Assembly: GCA_015061665.1 (NCBI GenBank)
Contig: SUWC01000003.1
Span: 23,945 to 87,944 of the forward strand
DNA length: 64,000 bases
From: Lentisphaerota bacterium
Lineage (GTDB): Bacteria; Verrucomicrobiota; Kiritimatiellia; RFP12; UBA1067
Direction: 5' to 3'
In this document: one piece after another, positions 15,889-25,213 of the stretch
Layout of the letters: each line of letters starts with the position of its first letter
How positions within the stretch are numbered: the first letter of the stretch is position 1
Translations under genes and position numbers: made by a program
Notes under the pieces: generated by a model
Seen by the model: the letters and a program-made list of their open reading frames with translations, nothing else
Database searches by the model: none
Told to the model about the DNA's origin: nothing

Positions 15889-15949
15889 GACAGGATTCAC
15901 AGGATTTACAAGATTTTAGGACAATCCTGTTAATCATGTAAATCCTGTC
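15889..15949. repeat. GACAGGATT palindromic element (intergenic glnK-amtB)
   Basis: GACAGGATTCACAGGATTTACAAGATT...AATCCTGTTAATCATGTAAATCCTGTC. Confidence 0.85.
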
Positions 15950-15971
15950 AAAAAGAAGAAAGAACGAAAAC

Positions 15972-19289: not shown

Positions 19290-20771
19290 CTATTGGTTAG
19301 TGGATTCCGACTTATATAGCTCCTGTATCTCCTTCGCCGAAAGCGCCCGATTGAAAAGCCTGACATCGTCCATATCCCCAATGAAATATTCAGAGTTTAC
19401 CAGTGGATCGTAGCCGATAAATAAGCTACATTTGTTCGGCTGCAAATCTTTTCCAATCTGCCAAGCACCGATTAAAATGCCATTACGATAAAAGCACAAG
19501 CTCTTGCCACTTTCGTATATCAGCGCGATCTGCTGCCATTTGTTCAACTCCAACCCAAGTTGCCCGCACTTCGCTGATATTCCATTATGAATACCATAAC
19601 CTGATAGTGATACCACATTGGGCATCATACCGAATAGGTAGTTGACATTCGTTTTATCACCTTTCTGCATAACGACTATCCAATGATTGTACCAATTATG
19701 TGGCTTTATCCAAGCGGTCATCGTAACCGCATGAATCATGTTCAATGACTTCGAATGAGGCACTTCGATATAGCCAGACCCACTGAATCTATACGCCTTG
19801 TTGGCGTTTCCATGGCGGTCCTCTGTCTGGGTCACATCATGCAATATCCCATTGTTGCGGTTCTTTGTCGCATCCTTAGCGTTGCCGTCAAAGGGCCAAT
19901 ACCCGACAAGACCCCGTTGCAGCCCGGCGCCAAGGGCGGAAGGCGTCGTCCGCTTTTGAGGGGTTGCAATTTCCGCAATTGCTTCAACCTCCGCCATACG
20001 CTGCTCGGCAAGCGTCTTTTGAAGGCCCTTGAGTTCATCGCGATCGATTGCCTCGCGGTAAAGCGCGACGGCGTGACTACGGATTGCATCCTTAGCAGCG
20101 AGCTGCTGCGGCTTGTAGTTCCACCAAAAATCAGCCAACGTAGCGGTGGCGGCGGTACCATCAATCTCCTCTTGCGCCATCTTGCCTGCGACGCCACCGA
20201 GTTTCGCAAACAGGGAAAGTGCCCCTTCCCATTTTCCTGTTGCGGCAGTCAACTCCGCGCAACTGCGAACGAGCACCTTGTCAGTTGGATTCTTCTTGAG
20301 GTCGGACTCCATTGCCTTCAATGCCTTTGCCCCGTTCACCCGCGCCATAACCGAATTATGAATGGCGAATAGTCGAGGCGCAACCTTGGGGTTCACCACC
20401 CTCTTTGCGCGAGTGGCTATGTCTAGAAGAATCTCCGGCTCAATGTCCGGAAATTGCACCATGATCGACTCGATCGTGTCGGCGGCCTTGTCGTACGACT
20501 TGTCGCGGACGTAATACGAAACAGCCCCTTTGAGAAACAGGAATTTTGCAGCCTCTGTTTCAGCCTCGCCGGAGAACTCCACTGCCTTATCGCCAACCTC
20601 CGTAGCGGACATTGTTCTATTCTTTAGTTCCGTGATACAGGGCTTCATCAATTCATTTACAAGTGCCTGCTTCTGATCTAGCTCTTCTTTCGTGGGCATG
20701 GACAACGCGCCTATTACAAGCGCCACCACACCCCCAAGCGACAATACAGCCTTCTTCATGTTTCTTTTCAT
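19290..20771 (-). CDS. Secreted LamG/concanavalin-like domain protein
   Basis: Signal-like N-terminus MKKAVLSLGGVVALVIGALSMPT; GLVGYWPFDGNAKDATKNRNNGILHDV...IEVPHSKSLNMIHAVTMTAWIKP...GDMDDVRLFNRALSAKEIQELY. Confidence 0.8.
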   Translation of the reverse strand: MKRNMKKAVLSLGGVVALVIGALSMPTKEELDQKQALVNELMKPCITELKNRTMSATEVGDKAVEFSGEAETEAAKFLFLKGAVSYYVRDKSYDKAADTIESIMVQFPDIEPEILLDIATRAKRVVNPKVAPRLFAIHNSVMARVNGAKALKAMESDLKKNPTDKVLVRSCAELTAATGKWEGALSLFAKLGGVAGKMAQEEIDGTAATATLADFWWNYKPQQLAAKDAIRSHAVALYREAIDRDELKGLQKTLAEQRMAEVEAIAEIATPQKRTTPSALGAGLQRGLVGYWPFDGNAKDATKNRNNGILHDVTQTEDRHGNANKAYRFSGSGYIEVPHSKSLNMIHAVTMTAWIKPHNWYNHWIVVMQKGDKTNVNYLFGMMPNVVSLSGYGIHNGISAKCGQLGLELNKWQQIALIYESGKSLCFYRNGILIGAWQIGKDLQPNKCSLFIGYDPLVNSEYFIGDMDDVRLFNRALSAKEIQELYKSESTNQ

Positions 20772-20884
20772 TTTATTGCAACCCTTTCTTTTATTGTGTT
20801 TACCGCACGGCAGTCGAAACGAAAAGAAAACCTCTCTTCATATCTCTGGTGAGGCCGTGAGATTGCCTTGATGGAAATACGAAG

Positions 20885-20910
20885 AGAGGAAGTGCGTATG
20901 CACTTTCTCT
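20885..20910. terminator. Hairpin between LamG gene and repeat-bounded module
   Basis: AGAGGAAGTGC-GTAT-GCACTTTCTCT. Confidence 0.4.
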
Positions 20911-21058
20911 GCAATGTATCGTCCATCTAAAAACTTCTCACGGTTTCACCAGACGACTGCTTTGCAGCGATGCAAATTGTTTGCGGCGTTCGGGGGTGGA
21001 TCCGCCTCCGCCTTGCGGCTTCAGCGCGATGAACGAGGATGTCGGCTCACACGAAGTA

Positions 21059-21155
21059 GCTTGACGCTCCTGATCAGTTCCCGAACTATGGCTTGCCTGC
21101 GGGTGCTCACCCGAAGACATTCATACTATAGCAAAACCGCCACGCTTGAGTCAAG
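21059..21155 (-). repeat. 97-bp direct repeat copy 1 (promoter plus leader hairpin)
   Basis: GCTTGACGCTCC...GCAAAACCGCCAC...GAGTCAAG, nearly identical to 21868-21964; minus-strand TTGACT-N18-TATAGT. Confidence 0.85.
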
Positions 21156-21172
21156 TGCGGCGGTTTGGAGAT

Positions 21173-21568
21173 TTATAAAAAGTCGGCCATGTTTGATGGC
21201 GGTTGCGTCGGCTCTGGAGGCAAGGTGGCTGCGATTGCTTTCAATTTAACGTATGCATCTGGGATGTCGTTCTGCAGAATATCCCAAATGGTGTCATAGT
21301 CAATGTCAGCATAGTCATGCACAATCTTGTGCCTGACGCCAGACAGACCCTTCCAATTAAGTTCTGGATGTTTAGCCGCGAATTTCCTCGTCACGTTATT
21401 AGCCGCTTCGCCCACGATCATAAGGTTGAATAGTATACTTTCAGTCTTGCCTTCGTGCCGCTGCAATTGCCCCCTAGCCAAGCCTTCAGAGACATAGACT
21501 ATCCATTCAACCGCATCCAACATGTGTCGAACACGAGATTCGTCGCGATAGAGGGATGAGTCCTTCAT
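21173..21568 (-). CDS. hepT: HepT-like (DUF86) RNase toxin
   Basis: LFNLMIVGEAANNVTRKFAAKHPELNWKGLSGVRHKIVHDYADIDYDTIWDIL. Confidence 0.85.
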   Translation of the reverse strand: MKDSSLYRDESRVRHMLDAVEWIVYVSEGLARGQLQRHEGKTESILFNLMIVGEAANNVTRKFAAKHPELNWKGLSGVRHKIVHDYADIDYDTIWDILQNDIPDAYVKLKAIAATLPPEPTQPPSNMADFL

Positions 21569-21864
21569 ACAGGAACAGCCTCCCTACAGACGCGATGGGC
21601 AAAACCAAGAGAGCGCGGAAGAACCCGCGAGGAAACCAAGTCCACATTCCTTCCCAGAAGTGCTTTATAAGCTTCTGTCATAGAGCACTCATTTTGCCAG
21701 CTATATCCGCCAGGCTCCCATTTAACAAGGAAATCCACATCGCTATCAGGGCGCTCCTCCCTACGGGCGCAAGAACCAAAGACCCAAAGCTTTTCGGCTT
21801 TGTGCCCTCTTGCGATAGCACGAATTTCATCACGTTTCGCACGTATCTGGTCCAACATGCACAT
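21565..21864 (-). CDS. mntA: MntA-like minimal nucleotidyltransferase antitoxin
   Basis: KLWVFGSCARREERPDSDVDFLVKW (GS-x10-DxD NTase motif); 4-nt overlap with hepT. Confidence 0.85.
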   Translation of the reverse strand: MCMLDQIRAKRDEIRAIARGHKAEKLWVFGSCARREERPDSDVDFLVKWEPGGYSWQNECSMTEAYKALLGRNVDLVSSRVLPRSLGFAHRVCREAVPV

Positions 21865-21867
21865 CTG

Positions 21868-21964
21868 GCTTGACGCTCCCGATCAGTTCCCGAACTATGT
21901 CTTGCCTGCGGGCTCTCGCCCGAAGACATTCATACTATAGCAAAACCGCCACTGTAGAGTCAAG
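21868..21964 (-). repeat. 97-bp direct repeat copy 2, contains the mntA-hepT promoter and leader
   Basis: Minus strand TTGACT-N18-TATAGT then ATGTCTT-CGGGCgagaGCCCG-...-AAGACAT stem; same layout as copy 1. Confidence 0.85.
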
Positions 21965-22119: not shown

Positions 22120-23265
22120 ATGAATGGATTCTTCAAAATTGCAGCGGCGACGCCGCGGCTGAACCTGGGCGATCCAGCGGCTAATGCAAAGGAACTCGCG
22201 CGCATCGCGAAGGAAGCCGCAAAGGACGGCGCTGCGGCCATCGTCTTCCCCGAACTGTGCCTTACGGGATACACGTGCGGCGATATGTTCTTCCGCGAAG
22301 AGCTGCTCCAGGCCGCGTCCGATTCCGCGAACGCATTCGCCGCGAAGACCGCAAAGCTCCCAATCGTCTCCATCGTCGGGCTGCCCATTGCCGAAGGCGC
22401 GGCGATATACAATGCCGCTGCTGTCGTTCACGGAGGGAAAATCGTCGGCATTGTGCGAAAGCGCGCGCTCCCGAACTACGGCGAATACTACGAGCGCCGC
22501 CAGTTCACGCCTGCGCAAGCCGACGAACCAGTCACCGTGTTCGACGTCGGCGGATTCAGGTTCGGTGTCGAGATATGCGAAGACCTATGGACGCCTATTC
22601 CCCCAAGTTCACTGATGGCCGGCGAAGGCGTGGACATGATTTTCAATCTTTCGGCAAGCACGGATTTCCTCGGCAAGTCGCAGAAGCGGAAATCCCTCGT
22701 AGAACAGCAGAGCCTGCGACTCGGCTGCGCATACGCAATGGCATGCGCGGGAACGGGCGAATCGAGTTCGGACGCAGTGTTCGGCGGCGGATCGCTTATT
22801 GCGGCCGAGGGCAAGACAGTCGCCGAAATAAAGCTTTTCAGCGGTTCGCCGAAAATCGTCGCGGCAAACGTAGACGTCTCCGCGATGCGGCACAGAAGGC
22901 GAAGCTCGTCGTCGGTCTACTGCGCACATTCCGTGCTGGGTGCGCAGCGCCGCGTTGTGTCTCTTCCTGTCAACCTTCCAGATTCCGCGCCTACAGATGT
23001 CTCCCGCTCTCCGTTCCTCGATGAATACGGAGAGGACCGCTGGTGGAGCAAAATCTTGGACATACAGTCCGCCGGACTCGCAAGGCGAATGGCGAGTGCT
23101 GTCGCCGGAAAGCTCGTCATAGGAGTTTCGGGCGGAGCGGACTCCGCGCTCGCTTCCTCGGCTCCGCAAGGGCAGCCGCCTACCTCAAGCTCGCCTCCGC
23201 CTTTATGCTCGCGGCGGTGTCGCTTGTCCTTCTCATGCAGGTCAGGCTCCCCTGACTGGGCATAG
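22120..23265 (+). pseudogene. nadE: Glutamine-dependent NAD+ synthetase truncated just after SGGADS
   Basis: Nitrilase domain complete (FPELCLTGY, RKRALPNYGEYYE, GVEICEDLW); ATP-PPase domain begins KLVIGVSGGADSALA and then stops matching. Confidence 0.85.
23160..23255 (+). pseudogene. 3' remnant of a second LysE-family gene fused to truncated nadE
   Basis: GSARAAAYLKLASAFMLAAVSLVLLMQVRLP* parallels GSVKATATLKLVSAIMLAAVVIVLAANISFR* of the gene at 18227-18862. Confidence 0.65.
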
Positions 23266-25137: not shown

Positions 25138-25143
25138 CTTTTT

Positions 25144-25213
25144 GACAGGATTTACATGATTTACAGGATTGTTGGTGGTTCATACTAATCTTGTGAATCC
25201 TGTTAATCCTGTC
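25144..25213. repeat. GACAGGATT palindromic element (intergenic pdxS-pdxT)
   Basis: GACAGGATTTACATGATTTACAGGATT...AATCTTGTGAATCCTGTTAATCCTGTC. Confidence 0.85.

Follow-up and report, generated by a model that had tools for sequence, protein, structure and literature searches.

What is the structured leader that flanks a toxin-antitoxin (TA) module in a Lentisphaerota bacterium, and how did the module come to lie between two copies of it? In the stretch of DNA analyzed here, 64,000 nucleotides in length (the window), a HepT/MntA-type pair is bounded by direct repeats, each with its own promoter. An earlier note on this DNA had proposed a cassette system in which each cargo carries its own promoter-leader and recombination between the repeats swaps the cargo. 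We therefore examined the repeats, the RNA to which they belong, and the genes found on either side of this RNA in related genomes.

Two promoter-bearing repeats flank a HepT/MntA-like module

The repeats at positions 21059-21155 (copy 1) and 21868-21964 (copy 2) are 97 bp long and 92% identical (E 2.4e-34); the ungapped match covers 108 nt at 89%, and the copies lie 809 bp apart. On the minus strand both carry a left-reading sigma-70 promoter, TTGACT-N18-TATAGT, with an extended -10 and 10/12 matches to the consensus. The -35 and -10 elements are at 21154-21149 and 21130-21125 in copy 1, and at 21963-21958 and 21939-21934 in copy 2. A scan for the consensus found 6 against 1.5 expected, which taken alone is weak evidence. 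The promoter is followed by a hairpin, CGGGCgagaGCCCG in copy 2 and CGGGTgagcACCCG in copy 1, in which a C-G pair is exchanged for U-A. The repeats, their promoter and this compensatory change (C-G to T-A in the DNA) were thus recovered as the earlier note had described them.

Between the repeats, and also on the minus strand, lie an mntA-like antitoxin gene (21565..21864; 99 aa) and a hepT-like toxin gene (21173..21568; 131 aa), which overlap by 4 nt. The former encodes the GSx10DxD motif of MNT nucleotidyltransferases (GSCARREERPDSDVD) and matches Pfam Polbeta (1.3e-10). The latter encodes the HEPN RNase motif Rx4HxY (RHKIVHDY, in agreement with Rx4-6H) and matches Pfam HepT-like (1.5e-18). 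Motifs, domains and overlapping ends all fit the identity first given to the module; the scores stay under the NCBIfam equivalog cut-offs (MntA 39.9 of 60 bits, HepT 30.2 of 60 bits), and for this reason we call it HepT/MntA-like.

The repeats belong to a leader RNA

The DNA to the left of copy 1 (20938-21058) had been taken for a short remnant. A covariance model run on the window gave a single convincing match, at 20817-20981 on the minus strand (173.5 bits), so that the supposed remnant is instead the continuation of a leader RNA of ~330 nt. The intact RNA extends from copy 1 to ~20817, shortly before a gene for a 493-aa protein with a LamG-like (Laminin_G_3) domain (19290..20771, minus strand), the cargo gene 3′ of the RNA. 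Copy 1 (21059..21155, minus strand) comprises the promoter and the first part of the 5′ domain. This domain (20982..21124, minus strand) contains hairpin 1, an outer stem GUUCGGG/CCCGAAC, an inner stem AGGA/UCCU that pairs the Shine-Dalgarno (SD)-like sequence, and a local insertion of ~36 nt. The 3′ domain (20817..20981, minus strand) contains a GNRA-like hairpin (GCUGCAAAGC), a covarying rod, an alternative terminator helix and a U-tract. A small protein encoded at 20938-21120 (a 60-aa open reading frame) was rejected: it had no Pfam match, and the stretch is RNA.

In 34 aligned copies from the genus, the rod forms six helices with 94.4% of cells paired, covariation is 0.505 relative to 0.193 ± 0.010 in shuffled alignments, and 21 pairs show double changes. 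Among 22 matches mostly from other genera or families, 33 of 37 pairs were double-changed and covariation was 0.719 relative to 0.230, in an alignment that was fitted to the covariance model and hence is biased towards the model structure. G-U pairs are conserved on one strand of the rod in the 34-copy alignment. The intrinsic terminator helix, which precedes the U-tract, and the tip and base of the rod are mutually exclusive. In the genus copies the terminator helix is 92.3% paired, with double changes in 5 of 13 pairs, and the alternative is kept in 20 more loci despite sequence divergence (mean z -4.3). In static folds the rod exceeds the terminator-forced fold in stability by ~18 kcal/mol, hence read-through may be the default state, and a trigger may be required for termination. 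Across its copies the 5′ domain has the outer stem GUYCGGG/CCCGRAC and, within it, a stem of GGGA(G) with UCCC in which double changes occur. In most 5′ domains, among them those of L205 and L193, a start codon with an immediate stop (GTG TGA or ATG TAG) lies in the loop of the hairpin that pairs the SD-like sequence, possibly by chance. Five loci (L184, L192, L010, L188 and L190) combine the same 5′ domain with a 3′ domain of variant sequence (GTAGCATCAACGCTACACGTCGTT...), which the model missed or scored weakly.

None of 12 loci matched Rfam 15 at the gathering threshold, and the window stretch gave only sub-threshold matches at chance level. Identity with the Rfam Pospiviroid family was rejected, the match being below threshold and reflecting the rod-like hairpin. 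In the open-access papers searched we found no earlier RNA of this kind, nor a TA leader, in Kiritimatiellae; a prior description may exist elsewhere. The leader RNA is absent from Rfam 15 and, so far as that literature shows, previously unlisted.

Distribution of the RNA

The sequence left of copy 1 is present in 38 of the 61 genus genomes, in up to seven copies each. Across the class Kiritimatiellae the RNA was found in 117 of 346 genomes, frequently in many copies, the copy numbers being minima since at most eight candidates per genome were scored. A sample of the phylum gave matches in 35 of 388 genomes, 33 of them from this class. A pattern scan of 84,980 species returned 57 loci, nearly all titled Kiritimatiellae, Verrucomicrobia, Lentisphaerae or uncultured bacteria, and many of rumen or gut origin. 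E-values of the model are rough, the genomes are drafts or MAGs, and gene calls outside the window are simple open reading frame calls. Typical copies also occur in bins titled Clostridia and Bacillota (L137, L142), for which mis-binning is likelier than transfer. A phage-borne element was considered and rejected, the core pattern having no exact match in viral contigs.

In two distant families (G055, G115) a promoter-like stretch is followed by the RNA and then, where a gene could be called, by a large, often exported protein, with no TA gene at the RNA. In the family of the window, TA or similar genes often lie inside the RNA or just upstream of it. These loci are part of the 22-match alignment. 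The TA-free leaders, together with the kept covariation and terminator, suggest that the RNA first served as a leader and that TA genes became associated with it later.

Fusions of the leader to TA genes

When relatives were searched with a profile of the 97-bp part, 59 of the 115 genomes from this family matched, with different genes downstream; the repeat is thus not peculiar to this locus. In ~19 loci the leader is joined to the 3′ domain at 35-48 nt, and we conclude that the 97-bp part belongs to the 5′ domain of the RNA. Copy 2 (21868..21964, minus strand; promoter and hairpin) and the leaders of L179, L182, L187 and L191 are cut within the loop that tops the SD-pairing stem and have lost the UCCC strand. 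At all five, the spacing from GGGAG to ATG, as read from the sequence, is 11 nt; in copy 2 the SD-like GGGAG is at 21880-21876 (minus strand), 11 nt before the mntA ATG, and the strand that would hide it is absent. The cargo that follows is MntA-HepT, MntA or DUF3791-DUF3990, and these five fusions may descend from one event. The same cut point with another spacing is found in L178 (a PIN pair), in L183 (PIN, in another genus) and in L194 (an ABC ATPase). In the last (L194 1501-1593) the gene fused at the common cut point is that of an ABC transporter ATPase, not a TA gene. The DUF3791 gene of L179 opens with codons typical of MntA (ATGTGCATG), and its homologue in L128 lacks them, which suggests that one cargo was fused onto the gene start of another.

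Because copy 2 is cut inside the hairpin that would hide GGGAG, it probably drives mntA-hepT through the leader promoter and the exposed SD-like sequence. The GGGAG of copy 2 was not clearly more accessible in static folds, and hence we infer SD release from covariation and anatomy only. TA units otherwise have their own promoters near the start codon. In L122 and L135, TA units are stacked with 5′ parts of the RNA that were cut at other points, and in L128 they are stacked head to tail, each with the tail CAATCTCAAATCGTGgAAACTGacAATGAAAGGAAC. In 35 distinct loci this tail comes after the upstream gene. In the longer form CAATCTCAAATCGTGgAAACTGacAATGAAAGGAAC...CAGTTAAAACGAT it stands after many unrelated TA genes, and also occurs free of the RNA between lysE and gltD (L169 12161-12178); it could itself be a site of exchange, or else an RNA element.

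TA and cargo genes around the RNA

The gene order amt-porin-nadE is common in the genus. The gap between porin and nadE is empty in six relatives (L167, L169, L171, L173, L174 and L176) and filled in the window, in L165 (another contig of the same assembly) and in L164 (G011), with the RNA directed away from nadE. The window has LamG as cargo with HepT/MntA as TA, L165 a BspA-type LRR protein with Rpn-type nucleases, and L164 a zinc-ribbon protein with DUF3791-DUF3990. Over 68 loci, TA-type genes prevail among the upstream neighbours, which included PIN (11), HepT (10), ORF6N (4), Rpn and others of this type. Downstream neighbours have no family in common, the commonest being BspA-type LRR proteins (7/53), and no shared pathway was found among them.

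Among ~74 loci, upstream DNA of at least 150 bp is common to 38 pairs, downstream DNA to 6 (one of these pairs being two elements on the same contig), and both to 1. Between L047 and L105 the upstream DNA is mostly 85-100% identical, and identity falls to 75-82% after ~40 nt of RNA. This uncoupling and the drop inside the RNA place the breakpoints in or next to it, and the differently filled porin-nadE site together with the pair counts supports cargo exchange around the RNA. The cassette proposal therefore stands in part. The leader does precede different genes, and unrelated TA families are fused to it at one point, but most cargo lacks this promoter-leader, and what stays constant is the 3′ domain of the RNA. 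Likewise, swapping of cargo agrees with the different contents of an orthologous site and with the uncoupling of TA and cargo DNA, but direct repeats flank the TA genes in a minority of loci only, and neither a dedicated recombinase nor an excised circle was seen.

Other features of the locus were noted. The nadE-like open reading frame of the window (22120-23265) is shortened and ends like the C-terminus of LysE (LLMQVR), suggesting a nadE-lysE fusion by deletion. The same assembly has a longer nadE on contig C166 (L165 10038-11903), beside a second amt-porin block; with two amt-porin-nadE blocks (C152 and C166), the assembly may be chimeric or represent two strains. An inverted repeat of 35 nt (15921-15955 and 25138-25172; CTTTTTGACAGGATTTACATGATTTACAGGATTGT), 97% complementary and 9.2 kb apart, encloses the whole locus.

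Discussion

The reading that we favor, and hold to be probable, is that of a ~330-nt leader RNA acting as an attenuator before unrelated genes, into which TA modules were inserted, with TA and cargo genes exchanged by recombination at the RNA. Kiritimatiellae would place this multicopy leader before unrelated, often exported, proteins. The intact RNA of the window (copy 1 to 20817) is most likely a transcription attenuator for the LamG gene, in which the long rod, as antiterminator, and the intrinsic terminator would compete in vivo for the same strands, and a stem of the 5′ domain would pair the SD-like GGGAG. In the family of the window, TA modules appear to have been inserted many times into the leader or just upstream. 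At copy 2 the cut within the SD-pairing hairpin would leave a promoter and an exposed GGGAG from which mntA-hepT could be expressed and translated. TA units and cargo genes would then be swapped between loci by recombination in or beside the conserved RNA sequence. The dispersed RNA copies probably serve homologous recombination, for which a special enzyme would not be required, and it is plausible that the TA genes stabilize the neighboring cargo. A bolder version, possible but doubtful in our judgment, makes the RNA core the exchange point of an integrase-free cassette system, in which the switch sets cargo expression, the TA genes hinder loss of the locus, and the RNA may be a new class of riboswitch sensing a general signal.

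A stand-alone, trans-acting small RNA gene, beside which neighbors came to lie by chance or by insertion selected next to a terminator, would account for the many copies, for the promoter and terminator of copy 1, and for downstream genes without a common family. We consider it unlikely, since the gene that follows almost always shares the strand of the RNA and in many cases begins at most ~120 nt past the RNA end; moreover, the competing helices are conserved over large divergence, and a cis-acting switch fits them better than a plain terminator does. Distinctly unlikely is a local tandem duplication of the promoter-leader, with mntA-hepT lodged between the copies and no exchange of cargo. 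The genome itself has only two close copies of the 97-bp repeat, and these, at 92% identity and 809 bp apart, are what such an event might leave. However, the relatives show no simple tandem duplication. At the orthologous site, L164 (G011) has one leader, another TA and then the RNA, and together with L165 and the empty porin-nadE sites it contradicts such an event. Other kinds of leader-TA fusion occur in other genomes and in one other genus, and across loci the upstream DNA is not coupled to the downstream DNA. The loci of G011 and G220 refute tandem duplication in large part.

An integron-like cassette array, in which the structured element would be the site of recombination, is suggested by the TA units of L128, which stand head to tail and have an end sequence in common, and by the frequency of TA genes among integron cargo. 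Against it, the G-U pairs conserved on one strand and the terminator fit an RNA, and the units have their own promoters and are cut at several different points. The GTTRRRY core of attC was not found in element ends read by eye. No IntI-type integrase (TIGR02249) exceeded the cut-off in any of 59 genus genomes, all incomplete drafts, and on this absence the integron reading was rejected; we give it hardly any credence.

With the attenuator reading and exchange at the RNA, a bacterial class that has been little studied gains a large, covariation-supported leader RNA outside Rfam 15, and TA genes apparently come to use a regulatory RNA's promoter and ribosome-binding site as their own. Two questions become testable: how TA modules come to be expressed after landing somewhere new, and whether they guard adjacent accessory genes against loss.

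With riboswitches and attenuators the RNA shares a long 5′ leader with covarying domains, a terminator helix with U-tract that, at the sequence level, is exclusive with an antiterminator, and many copies before same-strand genes. It differs from most riboswitches in that its downstream genes share no pathway and it matches no Rfam family, and from riboswitches and attenuators alike in that TA genes are inserted into it. The mntA-hepT pair resembles type VII (HEPN-MNT) HepT/MntA systems in gene order, motifs and Pfam domains, but it scores below the NCBIfam equivalog cut-offs, and its promoter and 5′ UTR are taken from an unrelated leader RNA. As in integron cassettes, stacked TA units with a shared end sequence lie beside a structured element, and the cargo is exchangeable; unlike them, the units have their own promoters and variable cut points, no integron integrase exceeded the cut-off in the 59 draft genomes, and the element appears to be a transcribed RNA with a terminator.
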